Shown here: one piece after another, positions 23,900 to 50,593 of the stretch
Numbering within the stretch: the first letter of the stretch is position 1
Layout of the letters: each line of letters opens with the position of its first letter
NCBI GenBank assembly: GCA_017525235.1
Contig: JAFXTC010000031.1
Span: 1-64,000 of the forward strand
Origin: Bacteroidaceae bacterium
Lineage (GTDB): Bacteria > Bacteroidota > Bacteroidia > Bacteroidales > Bacteroidaceae
Reading direction: 5' to 3'
DNA: 64,000 nt
Notes under the pieces: generated by a model
The model's input: the letters and a program-made list of their open reading frames with translations, nothing else
What the model was told of the DNA's origin: nothing
Database searches by the model: none
Program-made: the position numbers and the translations under genes

Positions 23900-24625
23900 A
23901 TGAAGAGAATAGCTTTAGACATCATTAATTCCACCAACGAATACGCCAAGTCGTTAGCTGCCAACGAGAGCAAGGAACTCACGTTGGTGACTGCTGAATT
24001 TCAAGAGGCTGGTCGTGGTGCAGGAACCAACAAGTGGGAGTCGGAGCGCGGCAAGAACCTTCTCTTCAGCATCATAGCATACCCTCAACAGCTACTTGCC
24101 AATCAGACGTTTACCTTGTCAGAGGTTACATCACTGGCCATCTGTGATGCGCTCAACAACTATACAAAAGGCTTTCAGATAAAATGGCCCAACGACATCT
24201 ACTTTGGCGACAAGAAAGCTGTTGGCATGCTCATCGAGAACGACATACGGGGGAAATTTGTTCGTCGTTCTATTATAGGCGTTGGGGTAAACATCAACCA
24301 GACCATCTTCCGCAGCGATGCACCCAATCCCATCTCCCTAGCACAGATTTTGGGAAGAGAGGAAGAACGCGACCAAGTATTAGACAAAATTACGCAGCGT
24401 TTTATACATTATTATAATATGATGGATGAACGGCAATTCTCTGCGCTTCACAGCCACTATCTGCAACACCTCTATCGTTGGCGAGAACTTCACGCTTATG
24501 CAGATGACAAAGGAAGTTTCCTGGCTCGTATCATTGACGTAGAGCCAACAGGTCACCTGCTCCTAGAATGTGAGAACAAAGAACAAAGGCGCTATGCCTT
24601 TAAGGAAGTAAACTTTATAATATAA
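23900..24625 (+). CDS. birA: biotin--[acetyl-CoA-carboxylase] ligase
   Basis: A 241-residue enzyme that activates biotin as biotinyl-5'-AMP and transfers it to carboxylase carrier domains. Motifs: QEAGRGAGTNKWESERGKNLLFS (GRGxxx-W biotin/ATP loop) and KWPNDIYFGDKKAVGMLIEN. It lacks the N-terminal helix-turn-helix of the E. coli BirA repressor, so it is a ligase only, as usual in Bacteroidetes. Follows yraN by 2 bp and precedes pyrH by 6 bp, which implies one transcript. Confidence 0.93.
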   Translation: MKRIALDIINSTNEYAKSLAANESKELTLVTAEFQEAGRGAGTNKWESERGKNLLFSIIAYPQQLLANQTFTLSEVTSLAICDALNNYTKGFQIKWPNDIYFGDKKAVGMLIENDIRGKFVRRSIIGVGVNINQTIFRSDAPNPISLAQILGREEERDQVLDKITQRFIHYYNMMDERQFSALHSHYLQHLYRWRELHAYADDKGSFLARIIDVEPTGHLLLECENKEQRRYAFKEVNFII

Positions 24626-24631
24626 AACAAT

Positions 24632-25342
24632 ATGGCAAGATTTAAAAGAATTCTTCTTAAGCTTTCAGGCGAGAGTCTGATGGGTGAACAAGGTTACGGA
24701 ATCGACGTAAAACGTCTGAACGAGTATGCCCAGCAAATTAAGGAAACCGCCGAAATGGGTGTGCAGATTGGTATTGTAATTGGTGGAGGAAACATCTTCC
24801 GAGGCCTTACGGGTGCCGGCAAAGGTTTCGACCGCGTAAAAGGCGACCAGATGGGAATGTGTGCTACAGTTATCAACTCGTTGGCCCTGAGTAGCGCTTT
24901 AGGCGCTATCGGTCAGAGGAATCGCGTGCTTACAGCCATACGCATGGAGCCTATTGGCGAATTTTACAACAAATGGAAAGCTATCGAGGCTATGGAGAAC
25001 GGCGAGGTGGTTATCATGAGTGCAGGAACAGGAAGTCCCTACTTCACCACAGACACTGGTTCTTCCCTGCGTGGCATTGAGATTGAGGCTGATGTTATGC
25101 TAAAGGGAACTCGCGTTGACGGCATCTATACTGCCGATCCTGAAAAAGACGCTACTGCAACCAAGTTCCATGATATAACCTACTCTGATGTTATTGCCCG
25201 TGGTCTGAAGGTGATGGATATCACAGCTACCGCCATGTGTATGCAGAACAACCTACCTATCTACGTCTTCAATATGGACATATTTGGCAACTTGAAGAAG
25301 GTGCTGAATGGTGAGGACATCGGGACCCTCGTTCACAACTAA
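24632..25342 (+). CDS. pyrH: UMP kinase
   Basis: Phosphorylates UMP to UDP in pyrimidine synthesis. The 236-residue length and the motifs are those of bacterial PyrH (amino-acid kinase fold): ILLKLSGESLMG at the N-terminus, GIVIGGGNIFRG, and GTRVDGIYTADPEKD near residue 165. The last codons overlap the end of the convergent GH97 gene by 4 bp, so transcripts of the two genes are complementary at their ends and no terminator lies between them. Confidence 0.96.
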   Translation: MARFKRILLKLSGESLMGEQGYGIDVKRLNEYAQQIKETAEMGVQIGIVIGGGNIFRGLTGAGKGFDRVKGDQMGMCATVINSLALSSALGAIGQRNRVLTAIRMEPIGEFYNKWKAIEAMENGEVVIMSAGTGSPYFTTDTGSSLRGIEIEADVMLKGTRVDGIYTADPEKDATATKFHDITYSDVIARGLKVMDITATAMCMQNNLPIYVFNMDIFGNLKKVLNGEDIGTLVHN

Positions 25343-27246
25343 TCAAATACCAAAAGGAATCCGCCTTGCGGCAGGCAGGAGAACGAGAGCTCGTCCGTTG
25401 CTTTTACCTTCCTGTGACTGATGGCAAAAGTTGTCTCATCAGCACCATCGGCAAAAACCTTCATTTCGTGCGTACCTTTTGAAAGGAAGTCGGACAGGAA
25501 CTGGAAATCCTGTCTCGTATTCTGCCCATTGAGCCCTGCCACATACCAGATAGAACCGCTTCTACGAGCCACAACAAATGATTCTCCAGGATAGCCGGCA
25601 ACGAAGCGTGTCTCGTCCCATACCACAGGCACCGTCTGCATGTGATGTTTAGCCTCATCAGGTAACTGCAGGAAACCATCTGGACGGTCGGCCCAATGCT
25701 GAACACCCGACTCAAAGGCTACAGAGAGAGCCAGTTCGTGGGCATAGGATGTCTTATGCTGATGTTGCGAATGAGTGAAGGCTACAGGTGTATAATCCAT
25801 TGGTCCCACAACATTGCGGGTATAAGGCAACAGACAATTGATGCGTGCCCCATTATCCGTCATATACGGTGCATTGTTATATTGCTCCGCTCCATAGACA
25901 GCCTCCTGCGACATAAGATGAGGATAGGTGCGACTCCAACCTCGTGGCAGCGTACAACCGTGAAAGTTGACCATCATCTGAAACTTTGCGGCATCCTCCA
26001 GGATATCAAGGTAATAAGCTATCATCTGTTGTTTGTCGCTCTCGAAGAAATCTACCTTTACGCCTACCACGCCCAGACTTTTGAGCCACGTAAACTCCTT
26101 CACTCGGTTCTCATGAGTCAGCATACGGTCGAGCGGCGTTGAACGTACTCCCGTATGAGTACCGCCAGAGTTGTACCACATCCAAGGTTTAATGCCTTTG
26201 GATAGCGCATAAGCCACAGCATCCTCCAACTTACCGCTGTTGGTCATCTGATCCCACTCCCAGTCGAAGAGCACATACTCCCACCCCATCTCTGCAGCTA
26301 AATCGACGTACTGACGACAAATCTGATAATCCTTTGTACCATGATTATAAGCCCAGTACACCCAAGCCGCCCTACCGGGTTTTATCCACGACAAATCCTT
26401 CATTGCCGTTGCATCAGAAACGTTCTCAACCAACGTCGACTGCACCACATCCTTCAGTTCTCCCATAATAGCAACATGCCATGGCGACACCCAAGTGTCG
26501 CTCCAAACGGGATTCACAGCACCCTGACCGTTTCCCTCGTAGGCAAAAGGAAAGGACACCTTGTACTGATTGGCATCTGCCGAATTATTAAGATGTGTGG
26601 TACAATAACAACGTGTAGCATTGGCCTCTGTCAGCAGGATAAATGTTCCATCGTGCTCAAACAGAGCTGGATAGTTCCACGCTCCTGTGGTTCCTCCCCT
26701 TTCCTGATAAGGGAAGTCGCCCTCGTAGCTGGTAACAAACTTCTGAATCCAGCGATGGCTCTCTGTCGGTATATAATAGGTTGTCTGTTCATCTGTGAAC
26801 TCCAACAGTTTCTTCGCCTCGTTAGCCAACAGATAGCGAAAGGCAAGTCCGTCGTTAAACAAGCGCACCTCCACCTTCATCGGTATGTTTTCCGCATTTG
26901 CAAAAGACAAGACCGACTGCCGATACTTTGCCTTAATCCTCCTCTGCTTGCCATGAATATTGGTATATTGTTCTCTTTTAGATTGTGGCTTCGAAACAGA
27001 AACCAGTTTTAACCCCTTGGAGAAGTCGTTCTCCCTGGTGCTAAAGCCCAGTCTAATACGCAAAAGTTCCTGTCCGTCGGGATTATTTATCGCAAGAAAC
27101 GTCTCATCTTCTTCTTGAAGCATAATCACACATAACCTGCCATCCGGGCTCTTTTGTGGCGTAAACAAACCCTGAGCACTCACTGCGCAACATGCCAAGA
27201 ACAGGCTAAAAGCAATTCCTAATGTATTTATTCCGCTCATTCTCAT
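25339..27246 (-). CDS. GH97 glycosidase, second copy, retaining type
   Basis: A 635-residue exported enzyme (start at 27246, MRMSGINTLGIAF; ATG 27240 is also possible). The longer frame to 27282 is rejected because the -7 element at 27262-27270 lies inside it. Layout as in other GH97: N-terminal beta-sandwich (SPDGRLCVIM), then barrel motifs PGRAAWVYWAYN, YVLFDWEWDQM and GVVGVKVDFFESDKQ, with the Asp typical of the retaining group, and C-terminal beta domain. Candidate acid/base Glu in MSQEAVYGAEQYN. It is clearly distant from the GH97 at 19.0-20.9 kb, so the two probably differ in substrate. The 3' end overlaps pyrH by 4 bp. Confidence 0.9.
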   Translation of the reverse strand: MRMSGINTLGIAFSLFLACCAVSAQGLFTPQKSPDGRLCVIMLQEEDETFLAINNPDGQELLRIRLGFSTRENDFSKGLKLVSVSKPQSKREQYTNIHGKQRRIKAKYRQSVLSFANAENIPMKVEVRLFNDGLAFRYLLANEAKKLLEFTDEQTTYYIPTESHRWIQKFVTSYEGDFPYQERGGTTGAWNYPALFEHDGTFILLTEANATRCYCTTHLNNSADANQYKVSFPFAYEGNGQGAVNPVWSDTWVSPWHVAIMGELKDVVQSTLVENVSDATAMKDLSWIKPGRAAWVYWAYNHGTKDYQICRQYVDLAAEMGWEYVLFDWEWDQMTNSGKLEDAVAYALSKGIKPWMWYNSGGTHTGVRSTPLDRMLTHENRVKEFTWLKSLGVVGVKVDFFESDKQQMIAYYLDILEDAAKFQMMVNFHGCTLPRGWSRTYPHLMSQEAVYGAEQYNNAPYMTDNGARINCLLPYTRNVVGPMDYTPVAFTHSQHQHKTSYAHELALSVAFESGVQHWADRPDGFLQLPDEAKHHMQTVPVVWDETRFVAGYPGESFVVARRSGSIWYVAGLNGQNTRQDFQFLSDFLSKGTHEMKVFADGADETTFAISHRKVKATDELSFSCLPQGGFLLVFD

Positions 27247-27261
27247 ACCTTTATTTTTTTT

Positions 27262-27270
27262 GCAAAAGTA
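27262..27270 (-). promoter_or_regulatory. -7 element of the second GH97 gene
   Basis: TACTTTTGC on the minus strand, 16 bp upstream of the ATG at 27246. Confidence 0.55.
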
Positions 27271-27478
27271 CGAAGAAACCATTAGCGAACCAACAGGTTC
27301 CCCATTATATTTGCTATAAAATCAACAAACCACACGTGGAGGGTAATTATTTTTGACACATGATAAAAGTGTCTAGTTTTCTAACACCAAATTAATGGTT
27401 TTATAAGACTACATGTCACCTTATTTGTAGTTTGGTTTTTGGTTTAATATAGCAAGGGAACCACCATTGCGAAGTGAA

Positions 27479-27505
27479 CCCCGAAAGCTTTTCTAACTTT
27501 CGGGG
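27479..27505. repeat. 9-bp inverted repeat between GH97 and the cysteine-rich gene
   Basis: CCCCGAAAG, nine-base loop, CTTTCGGGG. No T-tract on either side. With the dyad at 27523-27538 it may end the minus-strand operon. Neighbouring sequence (27340-27480) holds a CACACGTGG word like the 22-bp array at 2.05 kb and no gene. Confidence 0.5.
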
Positions 27506-27522
27506 CTCATTCCTGAGTTGGC

Positions 27523-27538
27523 ATGCCCACTTGGGCAT
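27523..27538. repeat. tight palindrome behind the cysteine-rich gene
   Basis: ATGCCCA-CT-TGGGCAT, a perfect 7-bp inverted repeat with two central bases, 19 bp after the stop of the minus-strand gene. Possible operator or processing site. Confidence 0.45.
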
Positions 27539-27556
27539 AATATTCAAAACAAAAAT

Positions 27557-27940
27557 TTATAAGCCTAACTGCTTCTTGGCTTCCTCAGCACCCTTGTCGA
27601 TTGCCTTGCTAGCCTCAGACTTACCAGCCTCTACAACATCGTTGGCAGCATCCTTTACAGTCTGCTCTAGGCTCTTCCCCTCTTCGGTCTGCTCACATGC
27701 CTTGTCGCATTCTTTTTCACAAGCTTTCTCGCACTCCTTCTCACAAGTCTCGGTAGCGCAAGCCTTCTGAGCGCACTCACAAGGATCACACTCGCAAGGG
27801 TCGCATTTGCACTGACCACACTCACAAGGTTCGCACTTGCAGGTATCACATGCACAACCTTCAGACTTCTTGCACTTATCACAGCAAGATGCAAATGAAA
27901 TGGCTGCAACTGCCATTACCATAAATAATAACTTCTTCAT
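27557..27940 (-). CDS. small cysteine-rich lipoprotein, metallothionein-like
   Basis: 127 residues. MKKLLFMVMAVAAISFASC is a lipoprotein signal with the lipidated Cys followed by another Cys. The next 65 residues carry 21 cysteines in all in two repeat types: C-x-C-x-x repeats (CKCEPCECGQCKCDPCECDP...) with a 5-residue period, then CEKECEKACEKECDKACEQ with a 4-residue period. The final 45 residues are a charged helix (TVKDAANDVVEAGKSEASKAI). Such clustered Cys can bind soft metals or form disulfides; which is true here cannot be read from the sequence. It lies 61 bp behind the Cthe_2159-type gene on the same strand, with no promoter visible in between, so it is probably the last gene of that operon. 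Composition is unlike any neighbour. Confidence 0.7.
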   Translation of the reverse strand: MKKLLFMVMAVAAISFASCCDKCKKSEGCACDTCKCEPCECGQCKCDPCECDPCECAQKACATETCEKECEKACEKECDKACEQTEEGKSLEQTVKDAANDVVEAGKSEASKAIDKGAEEAKKQLGL

Positions 27941-28001
27941 CGTTGTTAATTGGTTAATTAGTTAAACATTTATTGCTTCTTCTCTAAAAAGATTTTTCTT
28001 C

Positions 28002-29243
28002 TTAATCCATAGGCGGCATAGTATCGGTAGAAGTAACTTTATTATTCCTTGCAGTTACAGTAGCATCTGGGCCAACATAATACAAACCGTCAACCTTAAT
28101 ACCACGAGATTTAGTACCCGAGTTAGAAATCATCACCTTTCCAGCTGTAACAGCCATATTCTGAGTAACTTTGATTCCCATACAACGGGTTTCGTCATCC
28201 GTAACCTCGTCTTCATAAACACCTCCTGTAGCACGAATCTGTATTTGGGTAGTTTCGCAGTCCTCATTAATTAGCAGATGCCTAGCTACTGAGATACCTT
28301 TGCTTCCTTTTCCTGAAGCCGTGATATCGAACGTACCACCATTGATGGTCATTTTATCGGCCGACTTTATTCCTTTCTTATCGTCAGCAGCAACAGTAAC
28401 ATTGATTGAACCACCCTGAATAAAGATTTGTCCGTTGAATTCTTTATCCGGATTAGGAGTGACATCGTCATCCAACGTCAGAATCTCTGTCTGAATACCA
28501 TCACCCTGCTGTCCGCTAATGACTACTGTACCACCCTTCATCAGGAAATACTGACCTGCATGGATACCATCGCTGACAGCTCCATTAACAGTAATGCTGC
28601 CCGTTGATTTCTTCAACTCCAAATATTCCTTTGTACAAATACCATGTTTGGCATTTCCTGTCACAGTAAGACTACCACCACCTTCAATCTCCAAGTGTCC
28701 CTTGCAGTAGAGGGTGGCCTTCTGTAACCCGTCAGCAGCATCTTCCAGCGTGTTGTTTGTACCATCGTTTAGTATTAGCCCCACACGCTTTCCACATAGA
28801 ATATCCAATGCTGCGCCCTTTTGGGAGATAAGGTGCAATTCATTCAGATAGAACTTACATTTATAGCTGCCAGTATATGTAAGCGAGCCATTGGTGCTGG
28901 AACCTTGCAGTACAAACTCCAACTCATTGTGTGTGTTGGTGCTGTTAACAACCACATCGCCCCCTTCTACTGAACAGTCAACACCCAGCACATTGCCTTT
29001 CTCCACAGTTGCCAGAGCACCATTCCATGTTATAGTAATGACATGCACAAAAGTAATGCTGTCAACCTGACTGGTTTGGTACGTCTCGCCCTCTGCCGTA
29101 AAAGATGCGCCGCCTACAGCATACGTAACCTCAGACAAGGGCACCTTGGTATTACTGCCATTCTCCCAGATTCGCATATACTCCTGAGCCGATGCAATAG
29201 CGCATACAGCCAAGAACAAAAGAAGTGAAAATATCTTCTTCAC
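28002..29243 (-). CDS. Cthe_2159-type right-handed beta-helix surface protein
   Basis: A 413-residue exported protein (signal MKKIFSLLLFLAVCAIASA). After a short N-terminal beta domain (about 20-70) the rest is a series of beta-helix coils: repeated G-G-x-[LIV]-x-[VI]-x-[GAS] strings such as GGGSLTVTG, KKSTGSITVNGAVSDGIHA, KGGTVVISGQQGDGIQT, QGGSINVTVAADDKKGIKS and NGGTFDITASGKGSKGI. This matches the carbohydrate-binding Cthe_2159 family (DUF4353), whose founder binds pectin-like polymers and calcium. Such proteins go together with CotH kinases, VTC and DUF4956 proteins in many bacteria (established from genome context, function unproven). In this operon it follows VTC, DUF4956, DUF2490 and a small secreted protein; a homologous domain is fused to CotH at 61-64 kb. 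Confidence 0.85.
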   Translation of the reverse strand: MKKIFSLLLFLAVCAIASAQEYMRIWENGSNTKVPLSEVTYAVGGASFTAEGETYQTSQVDSITFVHVITITWNGALATVEKGNVLGVDCSVEGGDVVVNSTNTHNELEFVLQGSSTNGSLTYTGSYKCKFYLNELHLISQKGAALDILCGKRVGLILNDGTNNTLEDAADGLQKATLYCKGHLEIEGGGSLTVTGNAKHGICTKEYLELKKSTGSITVNGAVSDGIHAGQYFLMKGGTVVISGQQGDGIQTEILTLDDDVTPNPDKEFNGQIFIQGGSINVTVAADDKKGIKSADKMTINGGTFDITASGKGSKGISVARHLLINEDCETTQIQIRATGGVYEDEVTDDETRCMGIKVTQNMAVTAGKVMISNSGTKSRGIKVDGLYYVGPDATVTARNNKVTSTDTMPPMD

Positions 29244-29267
29244 CTTAAAAAAATCTAAATATGGTTT

Positions 29268-29717
29268 TTACTTTGTCAACTTAATGGTCTTGTCGCCCAT
29301 ATTAACAATGTACAGGCCCGACTTTAAGTTGTTCATGTTGATGTTGGCGCCTTTCTTAACATTAGCCATCTGAACCAAAGCTCCGTTGGCACTGTAGATG
29401 CGCAACATGCCGTCACCATCGACCCTCAGTTTACCATCTTTGTACTGCAAGTTCTCTGCCTCCTGAGGAAGAGCCTCGATAGCATCGGGGTCATCAACAG
29501 AGAAATACATCTTTTTAATCTCGCTCAAAGGATAAGTATACTCTCCTGTTGTGGTAGTGACAACACAGTTGCCATTAGCAAAAGTAATCTTCTGAATAGT
29601 AGGCAACGAAATGTAGTCTTCGCCAGAAGATGATACTGTAAGGAAATTGTACTTGTCTGCCCACATTGTAGTGCTTGCCATTAAAAGAATGGCTACCAAG
29701 AAATGCTTCATATTCAT
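29268..29717 (-). CDS. small secreted protein with C-terminal sorting-like tag
   Basis: 149 residues: signal peptide (MNMKHFLVAILLMASTTMWA), a short beta-rich region beginning KYNFLTVSSSGEDYISLPTIQKITFANG, then a C-terminal module of about 60 residues with LRVDGDGMLRIYSANGALVQ ending KSGLYIVNMGDKTIKLTK, which looks like a full type IX-like sorting domain (Por secretion tail). The N-terminal half resembles the start of the next gene product (both have an S-L-P/V-P-L-S-E-type segment). Function unknown. It is 22 bp after DUF2490 and 24 bp before the beta-helix gene, so co-transcribed. Confidence 0.75.
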   Translation of the reverse strand: MNMKHFLVAILLMASTTMWADKYNFLTVSSSGEDYISLPTIQKITFANGNCVVTTTTGEYTYPLSEIKKMYFSVDDPDAIEALPQEAENLQYKDGKLRVDGDGMLRIYSANGALVQMANVKKGANINMNNLKSGLYIVNMGDKTIKLTK

Positions 29718-29739
29718 AACCTTTGTTAGTTTGTTGTTA

Positions 29740-30534
29740 TCAGAATTTATAATTATAGCCTACGCTTACTGCATGGATTCGGTTGTCAGCTTTCCCGTCA
29801 TCTTCATTAAAGTCAAATGATAGCACATATGCCAAGGTAAACTCGTTATGTTTATCCAGTTTATAACCTGTTCCTACGGCGGTTCTTACCTTGTCTATAC
29901 ACATGTGATCACCCACACGCACACTGTTGCAAGCCTCGGCAGAAATAAAAGGAGAGAACTTCCATTGTTTTTTGTCGACTTCAAACTTTAGACGGCTACG
30001 GAGCACCTGAGATGACTTTGCCTCTTTTGGTTCTGTTTCTGTTGTTTCACGTATACCTTCTTCCCATGTTACATCATCAATATATTTTTCATATATAGTC
30101 CTTTCAAAACTGTAGCTAGGACGATAGGTTAGCTGATAACGTTCACGCAAAGATATTCGCAGCCATTTCCAAAATCTCTTATCTGCTGTTGCCTCAACAA
30201 TGAATCTGTGGCGAGGATAAGCGTATGCGGGTCTGATGCTATATTCGTCATCAACAGCAGGGTCGCCCTTCATTTTTTTACACTTCCTATTATATAATAA
30301 GGTATAACCGACTCCAAACTTGATGAGTTTGTTCAGTTTATAGCCTGCATCCACACCAACGGCCCATCTGGCATTCTCCTGTGCACGGTACTCTGCTTCC
30401 AGGCCTAAGCTCCACTTGGTGCCCAAGTTCTTCTTTGCACCCAGAGAAACCCAAGTGGCATACTCATCGGTCCACTGTGCACTGAGCATAGTGGGAATCA
30501 GCAAAAAAACGATCAAGAGAATCTTCTGTTTCAT
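29740..30534 (-). CDS. DUF2490 outer-membrane beta-barrel protein
   Basis: A 264-residue protein with signal peptide MKQKILLIVFLLIPTMLSA. The body alternates short amphipathic strands (WSLGLEAEYRAQ, AVGVDAGYKL, FGVGYTLLYN, FIVEATADKRF) and ends in an aromatic residue (SVGYNYKF), the usual outer-membrane barrel end. The motif W-x-x-x-x-L-x-x-R-x-R is seen in RISLRERYQLTYR. DUF2490 proteins have no known function; they occur with CotH/VTC/DUF4956 modules in Bacteroidetes. Starts 2 bp after the DUF4956 stop. Confidence 0.82.
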   Translation of the reverse strand: MKQKILLIVFLLIPTMLSAQWTDEYATWVSLGAKKNLGTKWSLGLEAEYRAQENARWAVGVDAGYKLNKLIKFGVGYTLLYNRKCKKMKGDPAVDDEYSIRPAYAYPRHRFIVEATADKRFWKWLRISLRERYQLTYRPSYSFERTIYEKYIDDVTWEEGIRETTETEPKEAKSSQVLRSRLKFEVDKKQWKFSPFISAEACNSVRVGDHMCIDKVRTAVGTGYKLDKHNEFTLAYVLSFDFNEDDGKADNRIHAVSVGYNYKF

Positions 30535-30536
30535 AA

Positions 30537-31247
30537 TTAACGGGGCATTTTCATTACACCTTCTATGCTGTTGCCGCGATCCTGTGGCTCATCGTAATAG
30601 ATGCGAATGAGACAACTGTCCTTCAGATAGTCTATCATACCCACTTCTATTCGCAGAATCTTCAAACCGGTACGCTTCTCCAAATCAGCCTTCAGCTCCT
30701 CGCGCTTATCAGGTGCTATCAGTGCCACATTATCGTACTTAATGTACTTGCTGCACAAGGTACTGACCAACTTGCTGCTCTCGAACAGCCAAGCCATACC
30801 GATGAAAATTAAGTTGACAAAGATAATGGTAACCAGTCCGAAGCCATCCCAATAATCTGCCTTTGGATGATATTCTGCTCTACCCAAAGCATTTACCACA
30901 CTTACGGCAATGAGCATAAAGAGGTATGTCATCTCGCGAATGGGCACAGCCTCAGTACGGAAACGCATGATGCCAAAGATGGCAAACAAACCCATTGCGG
31001 CACCAAGATTCATACCGTCGCCCTCCATCAGGGAAACCAACAAGAAAATGCTGGCAGACATCAGGATAAAGATGAACATGTAGTCGCGACGCTGGCTGCG
31101 AGGGAAATAGAAACAACGTGCGATAATGCATACTACCGCCAAATTGATGACGAAGCGCATCACCAATGAAATGAAATGCTGGGGGTCGAAAAGTGTCAAA
31201 CCGATAAGGTTACCCAACTGATAGTTAATGTCGTTAATGAAATCCAT
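30537..31247 (-). CDS. DUF4956 inner-membrane protein
   Basis: 236 residues with four predicted membrane segments: about 26-44 (SLVMRFVINLAVVCIIARC), 55-72, 80-92 and 104-160, of which the last is a pair. The family signature GLFAIFGIMRFRTEAVPIREMTYLF sits in the middle, and the soluble C-terminal domain (about 165-236) follows. Partner of VTC-domain proteins in many phyla; thought to act with the polymerase at the membrane, but unproven. 18 bp after the VTC gene and 2 bp before DUF2490. Confidence 0.88.
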   Translation of the reverse strand: MDFINDINYQLGNLIGLTLFDPQHFISLVMRFVINLAVVCIIARCFYFPRSQRRDYMFIFILMSASIFLLVSLMEGDGMNLGAAMGLFAIFGIMRFRTEAVPIREMTYLFMLIAVSVVNALGRAEYHPKADYWDGFGLVTIIFVNLIFIGMAWLFESSKLVSTLCSKYIKYDNVALIAPDKREELKADLEKRTGLKILRIEVGMIDYLKDSCLIRIYYDEPQDRGNSIEGVMKMPR

Positions 31248-31265
31248 ATTGTTTGCTAGTTGTTT

Positions 31266-32039
31266 TTAATTAATCTTTGTATTAGCCAGTTTACCCAGCA
31301 CAACCATCTTCTGCTTAAAAAGGTTCGTTTTAAGGTTTTTATTTGTCATCACACTGCCTATGCAATACTTACTGAAACCTGATGGCTTGATGCGCAATGT
31401 TCGCAGAATCTCCAGTACAGGACTGTACACGTTACCATCGCGCTTCAACTCAATGATTACCAGAGGACCCGTTTCCGCATCGTTGCCCGTTTCTATATTG
31501 TGAAAATGTACATCATAATCTATCGTCAAGCGCTCTGTCTTGCCATAATTCACCAATGTAATACGGTGGAACTGGTTGCGTACAGTAGGATGCATTTCAC
31601 AGAGTCCCTGATGAACAAGACCTTCTACGAACTCTCCATTCGCACCCTGAACGACAATATCTTGACCGGGCACCTCTACCCGTTTCTTTTTTGTACGACC
31701 ATGATTGTTCTTGGTTTTCACCTCCAAGAAGGTTAAGTCACTATCCATGTAAGTGCGTACACGCACCTTCTGACGCGGAGCTCTGCCATTATGGTGCTCC
31801 AAAAAGAAGCGATGATTGTCCGTATCCCAGTAAGTAGTCATGTAATTGGCTATCTTGCTATCGTTATTGAATTGTGCGTAATACTTGCCTTGTGCCAACT
31901 CCAACAATTGGGCTAGTTTCTCCTTACTGGTAACAAATTTCGTGTCCGTACGATTCATCAAACGGATACTTGACATTTGTTCCAATGTTATGGGCTCCAA
32001 ATGTTGCAACAATTCATTAATACGAGCGTCAATTTCCAT
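31266..32039 (-). CDS. VTC-domain (polyphosphate polymerase-like) protein
   Basis: 257 residues from ATG 32039 (MEIDARINELLQ); the longer frame starts within the -7 element at 32061-32068 and is rejected. The tunnel-fold residues of the VTC family are in place: RTDTKF near residue 35, QKVRVRTY near 100, LEVKTKNNHGRTKKKR near 114, LTIDYDVHF, VIIELKRD and GFSKYCIGS at the end. In yeast Vtc4 this domain makes polyphosphate from ATP; bacterial members have been annotated as polyphosphate polymerases but are mostly untested. It lacks membrane segments of its own and probably works with the DUF4956 protein encoded next. First gene of a six-gene operon with its own promoter. Confidence 0.88.
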   Translation of the reverse strand: MEIDARINELLQHLEPITLEQMSSIRLMNRTDTKFVTSKEKLAQLLELAQGKYYAQFNNDSKIANYMTTYWDTDNHRFFLEHHNGRAPRQKVRVRTYMDSDLTFLEVKTKNNHGRTKKKRVEVPGQDIVVQGANGEFVEGLVHQGLCEMHPTVRNQFHRITLVNYGKTERLTIDYDVHFHNIETGNDAETGPLVIIELKRDGNVYSPVLEILRTLRIKPSGFSKYCIGSVMTNKNLKTNLFKQKMVVLGKLANTKIN

Positions 32040-32060
32040 CATATTGTACAATAATCGGCA

Positions 32061-32131
32061 CAAATATAGGAAAAAATATACATTTCCACTGCCTGCGACT
32101 TGTTTTTTTCAAATAAAAAACATACTTTTGC
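32061..32131. promoter_or_regulatory. divergent promoters of the VTC operon and frr
   Basis: Minus: TATATTTG at 32061-32068, 22 bp before the VTC start. Plus: TACTTTTGC at 32123-32131, 51 bp before frr. The 54 bp between are A/T-rich. Confidence 0.6.
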
Positions 32132-32181
32132 TTCACGATTGTAGCAAAGTTATTAAGAACCAAAGTAAATAAGGACCTATT

Positions 32182-32742
32182 ATGATTGATGTAAAGGAAA
32201 CTTTGGCACTAGCCGAGGAAAAAATGGAAGAAGCCGTAATGTATCTGGATGATTCATTAGCACGCATTCGTGCAGGAAAGGCTAACGTAAAGATATTGGA
32301 CGGCATTCGCGTAGACAGCTACGGGAGCCTTGTTCCCTTGAACAATGTAGCAGCCATCAATACTCCGGATGCTCGCACCATTGCCATCAAGCCTTGGGAC
32401 AAGACTATGTTCAAGGTTATTGAGAAAGCCATCATTGACAGTGAAGTTGGTATCATGCCTGACAATAATGGTGAGATTATCCGCCTGAACATTCCCCCTT
32501 TGACAGAAGAGCGCCGTAAGCAGCTTGTCAAGCAATGTGGCAAGGAAGAAGAACAGGCTAAGATTAGTGTCCGCAATGCCCGTCGCGACATTCTGGAGAA
32601 ACTGAAAAAAGGCATCAAAGACGGCCTTGCTGAGGATGCCGAGAAAGATGCCGAGGCTAAACTGCAGAAAATGCACGACAAGTACATCAAGCAAATTGAG
32701 GATTTGATGGCGGCCAAGGAAAAGGAAATCATGACCGTTTAG
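32182..32742 (+). CDS. frr: ribosome recycling factor
   Basis: Splits post-termination ribosomes together with EF-G. 186 residues, the family length, with the hallmarks [22 protein letters not shown]-type N-terminal core, [17 protein letters not shown] and [13 protein letters not shown]. Followed by rsgA 25 bp downstream; both belong to ribosome maintenance, so a shared transcript is plausible. Confidence 0.96.
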
Positions 32743-32767
32743 TATAGACGTTAGACTATAACAAACA

Positions 32768-33727
32768 TTGACAGGATTAGTCATTAAAAATACTGGAAGC
32801 TGGTACGTTGTCAAGACAGACGACGGCCAGCTTTTTGATTGTAAGGTAAAAGGAAATTTTCGGCTAAAAGGCATTCGGAGTACTAATCCCGTAGCTGTTG
32901 GCGACAGGGTAAGCATTACCTCTCCTTTTGGAGGAGGTCAGGAGGGGGCTTTCATTACAGAAATCCTGGACCGCAAGAATTACATTATCCGCAAGGCCAG
33001 CAACCTCAGCAAGCAAAGTCATATTATTGCAGCAAATGTAGATATGGCGGCACTTATCGTTACAGTATCGCATCCAGAGACCAGCACCACATTTATAGAC
33101 CGCTTTCTGGCCAGTGCCGAAGCCTACCGTGTACCCGTCTTATTAATTTTCAACAAAACCGACATTTATACAGACGATGAGAATCGCTATCTGCAAGCCC
33201 TGATAACATTATACGAATCCATAGGATACTCCTGCCTGCGTTGCAGCGCTTCCACGGGTGAGGGAGTAAATGAAATACATCAGGCGCTGGTAGGTAAAAC
33301 CACATTGCTCAGCGGCAACAGTGGTGTTGGAAAAACAACCCTGCTGAACCGTCTCATCCCTGAGGCTAATGCAAAAACAGCAGAAATCAGCACTACACAT
33401 GACACAGGCATGCACACCACCACCTTCTCCGAAATGTACAGTTTGCCACCTTTCAACGCTCAACGCTCAACGCTCAACTCTTACATAATTGATACTCCCG
33501 GCATCAAAGGTTTTGGCACCTTTGATATGGAACGCACCGAGGTGGCACATTATTTCCGCGAAATATTTCAAATTGGCCAGGAATGCCGCTTCACCGACTG
33601 CACCCACACGACAGAACCACATTGCGCTGTGCTTCAGGCATTAGAAGAACATCGCATCGCACAAAGTCGCTATGCCAGCTACCTTTCTATGTTAGAAGAC
33701 AAGGATGCTGAGAAATATCGAAAATAA
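32768..33727 (+). CDS. rsgA: ribosome small-subunit GTPase A, TTG start
   Basis: 319 residues. A circularly permuted GTPase acting in late 30S assembly. OB fold at the N-terminus (residues 1-70), then the permuted G domain: G4 FNKTD, G1 [13 protein letters not shown]3 DTPG (in [14 protein letters not shown]), and the C-terminal zinc ligands [16 protein letters not shown]. The start is TTG at 32768 because the frame aligns with the family from there (M[11 protein letters not shown]). In the loop before G3 there is a lengthened segment ([13 protein letters not shown]) coded by three copies of the heptamer CAACGCT at 33454-33474; it is likely an inserted repeat and should sit on a surface loop. 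Otherwise complete. Confidence 0.94.
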
Positions 33728-33734
33728 CTTCCCC

Positions 33735-34955
33735 TTACAACGTCTTTTCAAGCAGGACAGTCCCGTCCTCATCTAATACCTTGAGGATGATTTTTCCCTC
33801 CTCTATCTCCACACGTAAACCAGAATTATAACCCTGCACAAGAGTAGGGAATTGTACACCCTCTGTTGGCTCTGTGAATGTATAGGTCTCAGGATGAAGA
33901 TGACCGCAGATGAGCAAGTTAACATTTGCCCTATTCAGGATGGGCATCATTAAATCGGCAAAAAACTTTGCTCCTGCCTGCTGTGTATCTTCTGTTTCAT
34001 TGGGGATGGGTAGATGACTGACCACAATACGATACCGAGCCGACTGATATTCTTCTGTTTCAATAAGCTTTTCCAACCAACGAGCTTCTTGCTGCCTGTA
34101 AGGATTATAGGCTGCCAGCATGGTAGAGCGAGTTGTCGGGTCATCATCAGGCAAAGCCTCCCCACCGTCTAACAAAACTATTTCTAAATCGCCCCACCTA
34201 TAAGCGTTGTACAACTTTCCGCTTTGATGTGGGAAATAATTCTCGAAATAATCTGCTGCATCACCTTTTGTTTCATGGTCGCCACGCAACATACAGAAAT
34301 CCTTCTTCGTCGCAAAGAGCTGGGCGCTGACATCGATGAATGAGGCATAAGGCTCCTCTGCCCTCAATGCCGTGCTGATAGGCTTTTCAACCTGCATATT
34401 GTCCATCATGTCGCCAGCATAAATAATATGATCTGCCGTCTCACAATCAAGTGCCGCAAGGAATTTCTGCAGTGTGGTGGGCCGATTGTGCAGGTCGCTC
34501 AGCACAAGTAAACGATGTGCCGTAGCCTTATCACTGGGTGTTCTGAACTCATACCAGTCCGATTCATATGTGGTACCGAATGTCATGCTATAAGGCTTCA
34601 TCAAGTCTATCTTCTGGGAAATAATCCTATACTCATAACTCGTACTTGGAACCAGACCACTGATACGAATCACAAAATTCTGAACTGGCAACGCAGCAGA
34701 TGGTGCTTGAATAAAATCGTATGCTTGATACTGGCCTTTAACTTCCTGATAGTATTTGGTAACCGTGGCCTGTCCTTTTTTTCGCACTTCCACCCATGAG
34801 AAGGTTGGCAATTTGTTCTCGAACACCACCGTAACACCATCATGTGCGAGCTCTTGCAGATAGGGTCCACCCCTGAAACATGTGTTAGCAGCCAGCAGAC
34901 TCAGTGGTAGCAGGGCTACTAAAAAAACAAACAAGGAATTACGTATAGCTTTCAT
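33735..34955 (-). CDS. secreted metallophosphatase, short form
   Basis: 406 residues with a signal peptide (MKAIRNSLFVFLVALLPLSLLA). An N-terminal fibronectin-III-like domain (about 25-140) as in purple acid phosphatases precedes a calcineurin-like phosphoesterase domain: VLSDLHNRP (D-x-H), YAGDMMDN (GD), LRGDHETKG in place of the usual G-N-H-E/D, SHLPIP and CGHLHPE (GHxH). The N-to-D change in GNHE (RGDHE) is notable: in this family that Asn is a metal ligand, and Asp may take its place. Its start overlaps the stop of the longer paralogue by 4 bp, so they are translationally coupled. Likely substrate: a phosphate ester outside the cytoplasm. Confidence 0.88.
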   Translation of the reverse strand: MKAIRNSLFVFLVALLPLSLLAANTCFRGGPYLQELAHDGVTVVFENKLPTFSWVEVRKKGQATVTKYYQEVKGQYQAYDFIQAPSAALPVQNFVIRISGLVPSTSYEYRIISQKIDLMKPYSMTFGTTYESDWYEFRTPSDKATAHRLLVLSDLHNRPTTLQKFLAALDCETADHIIYAGDMMDNMQVEKPISTALRAEEPYASFIDVSAQLFATKKDFCMLRGDHETKGDAADYFENYFPHQSGKLYNAYRWGDLEIVLLDGGEALPDDDPTTRSTMLAAYNPYRQQEARWLEKLIETEEYQSARYRIVVSHLPIPNETEDTQQAGAKFFADLMMPILNRANVNLLICGHLHPETYTFTEPTEGVQFPTLVQGYNSGLRVEIEEGKIILKVLDEDGTVLLEKTL

Positions 34956-37924
34956 TTCTTTAGCACCTTTTTATTGTTGACGATTATAATCCCCTTCTTT
35001 AATTGAGAATTTACCTTACGACCGCTTATGTCGTAAATAGCGTTATCAAGGTCTTCATCCTTCACTCTTAATCCTTCATTTACAATTCCATCCTCCACAT
35101 CTTGCAAGATTCTAAAGTCTTCTTGTCCTTCATAATAAGGAATGTATGCTGAACCGGCAGCAATTTGCGTCAACGTTGATTTCTGGAATCCTACCTGTCC
35201 GTTCTTCACTCTCAGCAATGCCATGCTTCCTGCCACGATATCCTTACGGTCCTCGCAATTTGCCACCAGGATATTACCTTCTATAGCTGGTGTTTCTGTG
35301 GTGGTGCTCCAGAATGTATAAGTACCTTTGGCAGCATGCAGCACCACCGCTGTACAAGCAGGAATAATTGACTGTGTATAAGGCACCAGATAAAGTTTCC
35401 CTTCCTTTTCTGTAACGCTGTAAACCTCAACGCCTTCGGGCACTTCGACAGGGAAAGATACACTTAAAATATTCCAACCAGAAGTAGAAATAGCAACCTG
35501 ATGATAAGCACGCTGCAAGAACCAAGAAGAACAGTAACCTGGATACAGATAATTATCTGAGCGAGCCGTGACAGGACCTTCAACAGGTTTGCCATAGAGC
35601 CCCTTCTCTCCAACCCATGAATCATCTGCCGATAAAAGAAGATTGGGCATATCGGCATCGGCCACAGTGAACATACCCTCGGTGTCGTAGCAAAACCGTT
35701 GACGACTCGTCCACCTTCCCATATAATCCTGCATAATCATATTCTCTCCACCATGTGTAATTCGGAAGGCAGTAGAGCCATCATTAATGCTAGCATTATT
35801 CCATCTGAGACTCATCAGACCGTCGGTTTCCTGAACACACATCACTTTTTGTTTTCCTTGACGGAGTTCAAAGGCACGATAAGCGCTTGTCAGCCAATAA
35901 TAACCATCTGTCACCGGGTTTAGAGCATCAGGTGCAGTCTCCTCGTAAGCTTGAACACTCTGTAGCAAACGCTCAATTATATCATCTGCTTGCTGGGACG
36001 TAGTATTCTTATCATCAACCAGGGCCTGCGCATCTTCTATGCACTCCCTTAAGGTACTACTCAGCAAAGGCGACACCTGGCCAGGATTATCTCCACTAGG
36101 ATAAAGAGCCAGCGCACCACGGGCTTTTCCCAAAGCCTTTCGAATCGTTAATGCAGGTGTCACATTATCAGAATCAAGGAGTGCGAGAGACTGAAGGGCA
36201 TCAACACTGGGTATCTCTGTAGCAAGAGAAGTAAAAAGTGCCGCTCCCTGAACCTGTTGCATTACATACTGCCCCTTTGTGTAAGGTTCTGTTTCATCTA
36301 CACCATGCAAGAAGAAACGCTTTTGGGGTTTAGCACTATGTATGGCCAAATGACGGTCGTACCCAGCCATATCCAAATAAGAATACGCCTCGCCCGAACA
36401 ACTCTGTATTATATAGCCTCCATCTGTATCGGCACTGAAGTAATACGTTTTGTTTGCCAGATTCGCTGCCGTGCTACTTGTGCTGTATAAATAAGCATGT
36501 TCTCCGTTCTTTCCGTACGGATTGTTATAATCGAGGGCATTGCCATACACACTGCGCAACGCATCTGTATCATAAGAATAAAGATATCCTGCTCCGTCCT
36601 GCGAGAAATTACCCATCATATAATAACCATCGGGAATAATCGCCTGTTGTTGAACAGAGCCATTTTCATCAAAGGTTATATAAACTAGTTCTTTACTTGC
36701 CTTGGCATCTTTTACCACCTTATCCAACAGCACATAACCATTTGAAAAAACTATCTTCAAATGAATATTACCGTCGGCGATGTCTATTCTCATGGCACTA
36801 TGATTACCTATGTTATACTCTTCAAACTGGTTACCTTTACCTTCATAGTTTTTACCCATATAGGTATAAGTCTTAGGATGATAATGGCCGCTGATGAGCA
36901 AATCAACATCGCATTGCTTGAGCAATGGCAAAATTTGACTGATAAGCTGGGGTTCACCTCCAAACTCATCTGTTGGCTTGTCGTTGTTCTGCAACATAGT
37001 AAAATGACAGATTACAATACGGTATTTGGCTGTCTTAAACTCTTCTGTCTGTATAAGTTCCTTGAACCAACGGGCCATCTCCTCGCGATAACTGTAAAAC
37101 GTGGCCATTCCGTGATATGCCGAATGATCATCTGTTTTATCCTCTCCACTATCCAAAAGTATTATTTCCAGATTTCCCCAACGATAGGCATTATAGATTT
37201 CTCCGCTTTTGTGTGGAAAGTAATCCATAAAATGACGGGACATATTGCCACGTGTCTCATGATTGCCACGCACATACTCAAACGGTTTGTTCTGTGCAAA
37301 CAAGTTCACGCTGGTGTTTACAAATCCTTTGTATGGCTCCTGATCGCCAAACTGCATAAAGTTGGTCATATCGCCGTTATAGATAATACGGTCACACGTC
37401 TTGTAATCCAAATGCTTTAACAACGCCTCCAATGTATCCGGCCTATTGTGCATATCACTGGTAATAAAGATGTGATGTTCTGTCTGATGGGGATCTTGTG
37501 TTGTAAATTGATTCCAGGAAGAAGTATAGGAATTCGTAGAAGTCAAACTACCTGTAGCACCATTAGAGTTCTGTGACAGAATCTTATGGGCCCTTATACG
37601 ATATTCATATGTTACACCAGGCTTCAGCCCTTCTGCACGAATAGCAAAATTTTGAATCGGCAAAGCCGAATTCTTGGTTGTCAGCACTTGGCTGTAGACC
37701 TTCACCCTTCCATTTACCGTCTGAAAATATTTAGTTGTTTCTGTACTTCCCTTTTCCCTGACCTCTATCCATGACAATGAAGGAACGCCATGCTCAAACA
37801 CCACGGTTACACCATCGTTGGTCAATTCCTGTAGATAAGGACCTGCAGTAAGCCATGTCTGCGCTCTTGCCTGCAATAGACAAAGCACAAATACAACACC
37901 AAATATAAGCCTTTTGTTTTTCAT
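34952..37924 (-). CDS. secreted metallophosphatase with lectin-like modules and C-terminal tag
   Basis: 990 residues with a signal peptide (MKNKRLIFGVVFVLCLLQARA). The first 400 residues are paralogous to the next gene product: Fn3-like domain, then SDMHNRP, YNGDMTNF, VRGNHETRG (normal GNHE), ICHFTM and SGHYHPK, so all metal ligands are intact. Then come two modules like ricin-B or starch-binding folds (GYYMMGNFSQDGAGYLYSYD..., GYYWLTSAYRAFELRQGKQK...) separated by a helical FIVAR-like linker, then a beta domain and the tag YDISGRKVNSQLKKGIIIVNNKK. The tag marks a surface or secreted protein. The adjoining short paralogue overlaps by 4 bp. Confidence 0.87.
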   Translation of the reverse strand: MKNKRLIFGVVFVLCLLQARAQTWLTAGPYLQELTNDGVTVVFEHGVPSLSWIEVREKGSTETTKYFQTVNGRVKVYSQVLTTKNSALPIQNFAIRAEGLKPGVTYEYRIRAHKILSQNSNGATGSLTSTNSYTSSWNQFTTQDPHQTEHHIFITSDMHNRPDTLEALLKHLDYKTCDRIIYNGDMTNFMQFGDQEPYKGFVNTSVNLFAQNKPFEYVRGNHETRGNMSRHFMDYFPHKSGEIYNAYRWGNLEIILLDSGEDKTDDHSAYHGMATFYSYREEMARWFKELIQTEEFKTAKYRIVICHFTMLQNNDKPTDEFGGEPQLISQILPLLKQCDVDLLISGHYHPKTYTYMGKNYEGKGNQFEEYNIGNHSAMRIDIADGNIHLKIVFSNGYVLLDKVVKDAKASKELVYITFDENGSVQQQAIIPDGYYMMGNFSQDGAGYLYSYDTDALRSVYGNALDYNNPYGKNGEHAYLYSTSSTAANLANKTYYFSADTDGGYIIQSCSGEAYSYLDMAGYDRHLAIHSAKPQKRFFLHGVDETEPYTKGQYVMQQVQGAALFTSLATEIPSVDALQSLALLDSDNVTPALTIRKALGKARGALALYPSGDNPGQVSPLLSSTLRECIEDAQALVDDKNTTSQQADDIIERLLQSVQAYEETAPDALNPVTDGYYWLTSAYRAFELRQGKQKVMCVQETDGLMSLRWNNASINDGSTAFRITHGGENMIMQDYMGRWTSRQRFCYDTEGMFTVADADMPNLLLSADDSWVGEKGLYGKPVEGPVTARSDNYLYPGYCSSWFLQRAYHQVAISTSGWNILSVSFPVEVPEGVEVYSVTEKEGKLYLVPYTQSIIPACTAVVLHAAKGTYTFWSTTTETPAIEGNILVANCEDRKDIVAGSMALLRVKNGQVGFQKSTLTQIAAGSAYIPYYEGQEDFRILQDVEDGIVNEGLRVKDEDLDNAIYDISGRKVNSQLKKGIIIVNNKKVLKK

Positions 37925-49117: not shown

Positions 49118-50593
49118 TTATCTAACTGCGACCTTACGATCATTTATAATATAAATCCCCTTCTTTAATTGGGGCGAGACCCTGCGACCATAGATGTCAT
49201 AAATAAAACTTTGGCTGTTGTCTATGGATTGTTGATTACTTTGAATTGATTCAATATTATCTATCAACTCTGGACTTCTAGGGATACCAAAATAATCATC
49301 CATCTCTAAAAAGCGGTTCACATACCATTGCTCTATGAGAAAAATCTCGTGGGTAAGGTCAAGGATGTATTTAGGTTTTGACTTCTGCCCCTCAAAGTAG
49401 TCTGTCATACGCTTCCAGGCACCACTTTTGATGAAGAGATCGCGGTATTTCTCCAATTTTCCAAATACCGAGTTGATAGAAAAAGCTCCTTGACGACCTT
49501 CAATCCAGCGCTGCTTGAGAATCGTCTTATATTCGGCATCGTCATTCACATAGGAAATGGGATAAGGCGGGTTCTTGGCGACATCCGTAATAGGCCAAAC
49601 GGTATAGTTTCCATCATAATATGAGCCATCATAACTACCTCCCAAACTGGTATCAAGGTCCCAAGGAGTCATAACGAACCGACGACGGCTGGCTTCCGTT
49701 GGGTCGGGGTCGTCTATGTTCTTGGTGATGTTTCGTACACTAAAGAACTTGTTCTTGTTGCCCCAGTTGTCAGCAATGCAGAGTGCCATGATAAGAAGAT
49801 GATAATCGGCCAGATTCTCCAAATAGAAATACTTCTTGACATAATCCTTGGATTTCCCGCTTAAGATAGCGTCGCGCAGAGGTTCCCAAGCTTGAAAGCA
49901 GCCGTACTCGTCGGGATACGTAAGTTCCCATGCGTCGTGCCAAGCTATAACGCAAGCAGTAGAGTCCTCGTTATATCCCGGCTCATTCTGATTGGCGATG
50001 TCATTGGTGCCACTCTTGTACAGGGCACCACGGATAACAACACTACCATCTTCCTTCTCCTGAACTTTCTTCAGGTCTAAGAGCTTGCGGTTAATACGGT
50101 CCATAAGATGGTAAATGCCGTAGTATTTGTCATTGATATATAGTTCAAGAAAGCGACCCTCGGTGCCGTTTCGCCCGTCGAATTGAGTCTCATATGGCAG
50201 ACGAGAGAACTCGTTCCAGATATCAAATGCCACTCTGTTACGCATACAGATGTGGTCGATAGCCATTGCATCCAGAATCCACGACGAACAAGAACGCATA
50301 CCTAAAAGAGCAGAGTCTAATTCCTCTGAATAATCCTGGGTGCGCAACTTCATGTTCAGCGAGGGCTTCATCATATAATGACTGGCAGTAGCACCACGGG
50401 TCTTAAACTTGGCTGGCAACTCCAAAACCCCACCGTCTATGTCAGTAAGTTGCATGGTTCCGTTTGCATAATCCATGCCTTTTTTTATCTTACCATCGAA
50501 AGAAATCCTCAACACAGGTAACCTGTCTGTTTCGGCACCAATGGAAAGAATATTCATCAGGCAAAGGAAGAGAAAACAGGAAAAACCCTTCAT
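49118..50593 (-). CDS. CotH-type secretory protein kinase with C-terminal tag
   Basis: 491 residues, signal peptide MKGFSCFLFLCLMNILSIGA. CotH kinases are atypical protein kinases first known from spore coats. Seen here: FKTRGATASHYMMKPSLNMKL with the ATP-contacting Lys, RNRVAFDIWNEF, FLELYINDKYYGIYHLMDRI, CIADNWGNKNKFF with the likely catalytic Asp, and TPWDLDTSLGG with the Mg-binding Asp of a DFG-like motif. All key positions appear intact. The C-terminus has the tag YDIYGRRVSPQLKKGIYIINDRK, so it acts at the surface or outside. It is 3 bp upstream of cdsA on the opposite side of ftsH, and a second CotH is fused to a beta-helix domain at 61-64 kb. Substrate unknown. Confidence 0.88.
   Translation of the reverse strand: MKGFSCFLFLCLMNILSIGAETDRLPVLRISFDGKIKKGMDYANGTMQLTDIDGGVLELPAKFKTRGATASHYMMKPSLNMKLRTQDYSEELDSALLGMRSCSSWILDAMAIDHICMRNRVAFDIWNEFSRLPYETQFDGRNGTEGRFLELYINDKYYGIYHLMDRINRKLLDLKKVQEKEDGSVVIRGALYKSGTNDIANQNEPGYNEDSTACVIAWHDAWELTYPDEYGCFQAWEPLRDAILSGKSKDYVKKYFYLENLADYHLLIMALCIADNWGNKNKFFSVRNITKNIDDPDPTEASRRRFVMTPWDLDTSLGGSYDGSYYDGNYTVWPITDVAKNPPYPISYVNDDAEYKTILKQRWIEGRQGAFSINSVFGKLEKYRDLFIKSGAWKRMTDYFEGQKSKPKYILDLTHEIFLIEQWYVNRFLEMDDYFGIPRSPELIDNIESIQSNQQSIDNSQSFIYDIYGRRVSPQLKKGIYIINDRKVAVR

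Follow-up and report, generated by a model that had tools for sequence, protein, structure and literature searches.

A conserved five-gene operon around a VTC-domain protein in Bacteroidaceae may encode a cell-envelope system for a phosphate polymer

Introduction

What does a polyphosphate-polymerase-like VTC protein do in a bacterium when its gene is followed by genes for membrane, outer-membrane and secreted proteins? The question is raised by an operon on contig JAFXTC010000031.1 (assembly GCA_017525235.1) from a rumen Bacteroidaceae bacterium, whose draft genome is 72.7% complete. The window analysed here is the first 64,000 nucleotides of this contig. Five genes of the operon, encoding a VTC-domain protein, a DUF4956 membrane protein, a DUF2490 protein, a protein with a type IX secretion system (T9SS) sorting tail (Por-tail) and a Cthe_2159-type beta-helix protein, recur together in related genomes. 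The reading we prefer, with a rough probability of 0.42, is that they specify a machine of the cell envelope: a bacterial VTC enzyme at its core would make a phosphate polymer, and partner proteins would move or bind it.

Results

Organization and conservation of the VTC operon

Six open reading frames, all on the minus strand, span positions 27557-32039 with successive gaps of 18, 2, 22, 24 and 61 nt (Table 1). A first-pass annotation of this DNA had given the same genes, coordinates and gaps, which agree with the list of open reading frames, obtained by a simple calling method. The 24-nt gap ahead of the beta-helix gene holds only with a GTG start, which gives the protein a signal-peptide-like N-terminus.

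Gene order was followed in two sets of loci, 66 from genomes of the family and 80 from the nearest named relatives. Their counts are kept separate because the sets overlap: identical VTC sequences occur in four cross-set pairs and in one pair inside the named set, leaving 141 distinct sequences among the 146 loci. The family profiles were grown from the same loci, and loci with less than 5.5 kb downstream (12/66 and 13/80) were left out. VTC is present in 66 of the 121 family genomes. Among the 54 family loci with at least 5.5 kb downstream, VTC-DUF4956-DUF2490 stand in order in 53 and VTC-DUF4956-DUF2490-Cthe_2159 in 49; all five genes do so in 39, as read with a Por-tail profile that takes in a widespread sorting tail. 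In the named set, 67/67 loci with room have the four genes and 61/67 have the five. The expectation that the order would extend beyond this genome is thus borne out, for five genes out of the proposed six. A conserved six-gene unit was rejected, and the Cys-rich gene is not supported as an integral partner, being found at 5 of the 146 loci (the window and its near relatives L097, L098, L101 and L103). The Cys-rich protein matched no Pfam family and scored 28.6 bits against the PG1828 family lipoprotein, below the cut-off of 50. Loci L099 and L125 bear a different lipoprotein-like gene at its position. Cys-profile matches at L074 and L089 were dropped, having one Cys each and sharing the lipoprotein-like N-terminus.

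Outside the family, the pairing of VTC with DUF4956 persists. VTC occurs in 54 of 375 genomes of a phylum sample. At the 30 best-match phylum loci an open reading frame directly follows VTC in 28, and 26 of these match DUF4956; at 20 further loci outside the family, DUF4956 follows VTC in 19 (profile E up to 0.01). The pairing with DUF2490 had been called distinctive, a view that does not stand: a DUF2490 match lies near VTC at 7/20 loci outside the family, and a DUF4956/DUF2490 pair is listed for B. thetaiotaomicron (PMC10434189). At one locus (L326, 8737-11163), VTC-DUF4956-DUF2490 are followed by an arylsulfotransferase gene with a Por tail.

The single promoter that the first-pass annotation had placed ahead of VTC holds in Bacteroidetes terms. 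The VTC gene has two tandem ATGs at its start, and the box TATATTTG (32068-32061, minus strand) is found 18 nt ahead of the first. The Bacteroidetes -7 consensus, TAnnTTTG, was found within 120 nt ahead of VTC at 100/146 loci against a shuffled mean of 10.8, and ahead of the four inner genes at 1/138, 7/126, 5/114 and 5/131 loci. A scan for E. coli-type promoters listed no site ahead of VTC, and its total of 15 sites is no excess over the 12.9 expected from shuffles. Across loci the median gaps are 27, 4, 25 and 9 nt, and 10%, 37%, 1% and 29% of the respective junctions overlap. Because the order is kept, the gaps are short and the promoter motif stands at the head gene only, the genes from VTC to Cthe_2159 are read as one predicted transcription unit. 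The hairpin that follows the Cys-rich gene may mark a transcription end. No known RNA family reached its gathering score across 24000-34000.

Table 1. Features of the VTC operon and related genes in the window.
Feature	Coordinates	Strand	Match or remark
Bacteroidetes-type -7 box TATATTTG	32061..32068	-	precedes VTC gene
VTC-domain protein, 257 aa, triphosphate-tunnel polyphosphate-polymerase-like	31266..32039	-	PF09359 2.2e-28
DUF4956 membrane protein, 236 aa	30537..31247	-	PF16316 7.1e-49
DUF2490 secreted-looking protein, 264 aa, predicted outer-membrane beta-barrel	29740..30534	-	PF10677 3.3e-22
Secreted-looking protein, 149 aa, T9SS-type C-terminal sorting tail	29268..29717	-	PF18962 1.6e-6
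Cthe_2159-type beta-helix protein, 413 aa, GTG start	28002..29243	-	PF14262 1e-40
Cys-rich lipoprotein-like protein, 127 aa, 21 Cys	27557..27940	-	lineage-specific add-on
Strong hairpin after Cys-rich gene, possible transcription end	27475..27509	-	15-bp stem, z -5.29; without T run
CotH kinase-family protein, 491 aa, outside operon	49118..50593	-	PF08757 2.2e-24
CotH kinase-family protein, 1013 aa	60946..63987	-	PF08757 1.2e-31

The VTC protein

The VTC protein matches PF09359 with 99.8 bits (cut-off 23), its sole Pfam family at E 0.1. At the same threshold Pfam gave no SPX domain in this protein and no VTC1/DUF202, the eukaryotic VTC membrane domain, in any of the six proteins. A profile of 43 VTC homologues (37 from the family, 6 distant) matches yeast Vtc4 (3g3q, 3.3e-11) over the tunnel domain. 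As mapped on a profile alignment to 8i6v, the residues invariant in 43/43 sequences include K34 (K200 in Vtc4), R93 (R264), R95 (R266), K108 (K281), K118 (K294), R159 (R361), R170 (R373), E197 (E426) and S223-K224 (S457-K458), the Vtc4 positions being those that we take to be catalytic. R89 and K91 are also invariant in the 43, and the Vtc4 residues aligned to them are non-basic. In yeast, R264 and R266 are reported as essential for polyphosphate synthesis (PMC8749416), and the triple change R264A/R266A/E426N was used to inactivate the Vtc4 complex (PMC9911596).

With all mapped Vtc4 active-site residues kept in 43/43, the polyphosphate-polymerase-like nature assigned by the first-pass annotation is supported, and the features of the proteins look like the cytoplasmic, membrane and secreted parts that it had described. 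Because this active site is intact, we propose that the VTC protein would polymerise phosphate from ATP at the cytoplasmic face; its product is probably polyphosphate.

The DUF4956 membrane protein

Hydropathy of the DUF4956 protein indicates about four hydrophobic segments and a soluble C-terminal portion. Residues R97, T98, R104 and E105 are invariant in 31 aligned sequences, and the RFRT motif is also present in distant DUF4956 members, where both arginines are again invariant. In yeast, the membrane channel of VTC has a lining of basic residues (PMC9911596). The strict pairing with VTC and the invariant arginines at the membrane segments are the reasons for proposing that the chain would pass into or through DUF4956, which would stand in for the membrane domains of yeast VTC. 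The chances that DUF4956 moves the product across the inner membrane appear about even.

These proteins could also be given a different role: VTC would form or split a small phosphate compound, and DUF4956 would not be a channel but an MgtC-type regulator in the membrane. Triphosphate-tunnel folds include hydrolases, which counts for this possibility, as do the distant DUF4956 members: 8/28 have an MgtC Pfam match (best 2.6e-5), and hhalign of the distant set against MgtC gave a probability of 86. For the window's own DUF4956 set the corresponding probability was 0.2, and VTC keeps every mapped polymerase residue of Vtc4. On these grounds we regard a small-compound role as unlikely.

DUF2490, Por-tail and beta-helix proteins

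The DUF2490 protein scored 28.2 bits against OMP_b-brl, just below the cut-off of 28.7. Among the 20 columns most conserved in its alignment, which has a mean column identity of 27%, Arg takes 7, where its background frequency is 6.5% (p 1.8e-4). At all seven conserved arginines the i+-1,3 neighbours are more hydrophobic than the i+-2,4 ones, a strand-like pattern with a polar face. The same count gave 6 for VTC, 2 each for DUF4956 and distant DUF4956, 3 for MgtC, and 0 for each of the secreted controls, Cthe_2159 and Por-tail. This suggests that the predicted DUF2490 barrel may have a basic inner face.

The 149-aa protein passes the cut-offs of both Por_Secre_tail PF18962 (28.7 bits, cut-off 27) and TIGR04183 (29.7, cut-off 23). 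The T9SS component SprA was found in the genome and, together with the sorting domain, fits a T9SS cargo. The beta-helix protein matches PDB 4peu (1.1e-7). Within the proposed machine, the DUF2490 barrel with its conserved arginines, the T9SS-tailed protein and the Cthe_2159 beta-helix would handle, anchor or bind the anionic product beyond the inner membrane. That the product reaches the surface through DUF2490 is a doubtful step.

A cluster for adhesion to plant fibre would account for the beta-helix in another way: it would bind pectin, and the other genes would aid its display. Both polygalacturonic acid and cellulose are reported as ligands of Cthe_2159 proteins (PMC6712302). The 80 nearest named loci come mostly from metagenome-assembled genomes labelled Bacteroidaceae, Prevotellaceae or Bacteroidales, and most bear names of ruminant-gut samples, which also speaks for adhesion. 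Such a cluster leaves unexplained the invariant polymerase active site and the strict phylum-wide pairing of VTC with DUF4956, and we consider it very unlikely.

VTC and other polyphosphate genes

In the genus of the source genome, VTC is present in 7/7 genomes, six of which are 92-100% complete. No match to PPK1 or PPK2 was obtained in these 7/7 genomes, and VTC is therefore the sole one present in the genus among the three synthase families searched. Ppx had no match in 6/7; the remaining genome, G038, gave one match below the family cut-off.

Across the family, crude counts would favour the idea that VTC replaced PPK1 as the maker of polyphosphate: among the 121 genomes PPK1 is present in 40, VTC in 66 and both in just 5. 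On an RpoB tree, which took in 106/121 genomes, there were 13 changes in VTC and 7 in PPK1. In 13 independent tree pairs, PPK1 moved opposite to VTC in 2.0 and in the same direction in 1.4. The family-wide exclusivity of VTC and PPK1 is clade structure. In the phylum sample, moreover, 51/54 VTC genomes also have PPK1. Replacement as a general claim was dropped on the tree pairs and the phylum counts and is highly improbable. Because PPK1 accompanies VTC in those phylum genomes, polyphosphate supply alone leaves VTC unexplained.

At locus L055 (6953-7837), a Ppx/GppA-like open reading frame comes directly after the beta-helix gene, and inspection by eye shows a terminator-like repeat in the interval. 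Ppx was rejected as an operon member, as this frame stands behind the repeat and a search with its protein matched no other of the 146 loci.

CotH kinases are more numerous in VTC genomes

CotH matches number 12 in the source genome, of which two lie in the window (Table 1). We infer from size, N-termini and tails that these CotH proteins are secreted. The C-terminal part of the 1013-aa protein is Cthe_2159-like in a weak sense (PF14262 20.9 bits, below the cut-off of 25.8), and the Cthe_2159 profile grown from the loci gave no match to it. A jackhmmer-grown CotH profile drifted onto a shared C-terminal tail, and its POR149 matches were discarded.

CotH was found in 62/66 VTC genomes (median 5) and in 20/55 others (median 0), two of these 20 scoring below the family cut-off. 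At least three CotH genes occur in 48 VTC genomes and in one other, G083 (560 contigs, 84% complete, from a VTC-bearing genus). In path-disjoint pairs on the RpoB tree, taken nearest first, the VTC side has more CotH in 9/13, fewer in 1 and the same number in 3 (sign test p 0.021, Wilcoxon p 0.012); 200 random pairings gave means of 8.3 more, 1.8 fewer and 2.0 tied. Threshold tests on 13 pairs gave 4.4 vs 1.3 for at least one CotH (median p 0.375), 6.9 vs 0.8 for at least two (0.07) and 5.1 vs 0 for at least three (0.0625). With PPK1 as the control trait, CotH counts were higher in 2 pairs, lower in 3 and tied in 2. By rounded genome size, the VTC member exceeds its partner in 4 of these 13 pairs, falls below it in 7 and matches it in 2; size therefore does not account for the CotH excess. 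This co-occurrence of CotH and VTC is a new link, absent from the first-pass annotation, and it suggests that the product, or its phosphate, may be used outside the cell.

CotH also lies beside VTC in places, as seen by Pfam on 10 proteins picked from 20 loci and in single cases. At L079, of the same family, it comes straight after DUF4956, the two genes overlapping by 4 nt, on a contig that ends about 300 nt past CotH. It also follows DUF4956 in L332 and stands ahead of VTC in L321.

These data bear most directly on extracellular phosphorylation, by which VTC-DUF4956 would supply phosphoryl groups or polyphosphate to secreted CotH kinases that modify surface or secreted proteins, and the beta-helix and Por-tail proteins would be substrates or scaffolds. 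The excess in VTC genomes and in the tree pairs (9 vs 1), the adjoining genes at L079, L332 and L321 and the weak Cthe_2159-like part of the window CotH at 60946-63987 all speak for it. On the other side, 4 VTC genomes and the window's operon are without CotH, the threshold tests are weaker, above all for presence alone, and CotH is the one family compared, whose excess may also reflect secretome size or habitat. CotH uses ATP, which counts against its supply by VTC. A further point in favour is a Gram-positive arrangement with CotH beside pel genes, a polymerase and DUF4956 (PMC7112168). Altogether we hold extracellular phosphorylation to be a rather unlikely account of the operon.

Neighbouring genes

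Upstream of the VTC operon, on the plus strand, are frr and rsgA; downstream is a GH97 gene (25339-27282), followed at 24632-25342 by what we take, from its sequence, to be pyrH. The operon and the GH97 gene thus sit between pyrH and frr (window 24632-32742), which are commonly neighbours in bacteria. An frr gene on the opposite strand lies near VTC in 80/80 named and 21/66 family loci, and frr and pyrH are both within 12 kb of VTC in 29/146. GH97 was placed outside the unit, being near VTC in 2/146 loci only. Two calcineurin-type phosphoesterase genes (33735-34955 and 34952-37924, minus strand) overlap by 4 nt; such metallophosphatases, near VTC in 5/146 loci only, were likewise placed outside. 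A 2246-aa secreted-looking protein (42259-48999, plus strand) had no Pfam match at 0.01.

Discussion

Taken together, the kept active site, the strict pairing of VTC with DUF4956 and the conserved order of five genes fit a cell-envelope machine for a phosphate polymer. Several results weigh against it. The Por-tail gene was not found in 11/54 family loci and the beta-helix gene in 4/54. No tree-corrected replacement of PPK1 by VTC was obtained, VTC genomes of the phylum mostly having PPK1 as well, and Ppx does not track VTC (tree pairs 3.1 with, 2.8 against). The DUF4956 set of the window is without detectable kinship to MgtC. The arginine signature of DUF2490 could reflect folding; the VTC alignment is Arg-enriched too (6/20), and that of MgtC has 3/20.

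A more specific form of this machine would make VTC-DUF4956-DUF2490 a trans-envelope exporter of polyphosphate in Bacteroidales that feeds the many CotH kinases, as a phosphate source or as a substrate, with Cthe_2159 as a polyanion-binding scaffold. We judge it quite unlikely. If true, it would be a dedicated bacterial route of polyphosphate secretion that explains how extracellular kinases are supplied, and the materials that gut bacteria display on their surface would include phosphate polymers besides polysaccharides. The Gram-negative version described here, of five conserved genes with the VTC active site intact and from a genus in which PPK1 and PPK2 had no match, is a clean place to ask about polyphosphate export. 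It is equally suited to asking whether CotH kinases depend on the exported polymer.

Comparison with known systems

In our searches of the openly licensed PubMed Central (PMC) literature we found no experimental function for the VTC-DUF4956 pair and no paper naming both 'VTC domain' and 'DUF4956'. One of the closest known systems is the yeast VTC complex, which likewise has a tunnel-domain enzyme with the same catalytic residues and a membrane part, and for which coupled polyphosphate synthesis and translocation has been proposed (PMC9911596). The window operon differs from it in being without SPX, in having a membrane part of another family, DUF4956, and in its predicted place in the cell envelope, not the vacuole.

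In B. thetaiotaomicron, BT3498-BT3499 are the same DUF4956/DUF2490 pair, compared here as a gene pair only. Their entry in an iron-stimulon table reads -7.6, the adjoining column shows 0.175 (probably a non-significant p value), and no function is given (PMC10434189). The beta-helix protein belongs, above the cut-off, to the same family as Cthe_2159 (PDB 4peu, 4phb), the window copy being inside a VTC operon.

The combination of VTC-type genes with CotH has precedents. A C. perfringens region with two VTC genes and CotH has been reported (PMC2879425). In streptococci and clostridia, pel genes are accompanied by a cluster of CotH, a polyphosphate polymerase, DUF4956 and DUF4832, and a bifidobacterial version is described as being without DUF4832 (PMC7112168). 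As in the window operon, the polymerase gene of the pel-linked cluster adjoins DUF4956 and is accompanied by further genes of surface function; the window operon itself is without CotH and has DUF2490, Por-tail and Cthe_2159 genes in its place. The grouping of CotH, polymerase and DUF4956 is thus already published (PMC7112168), and the window operon is a further version of it.

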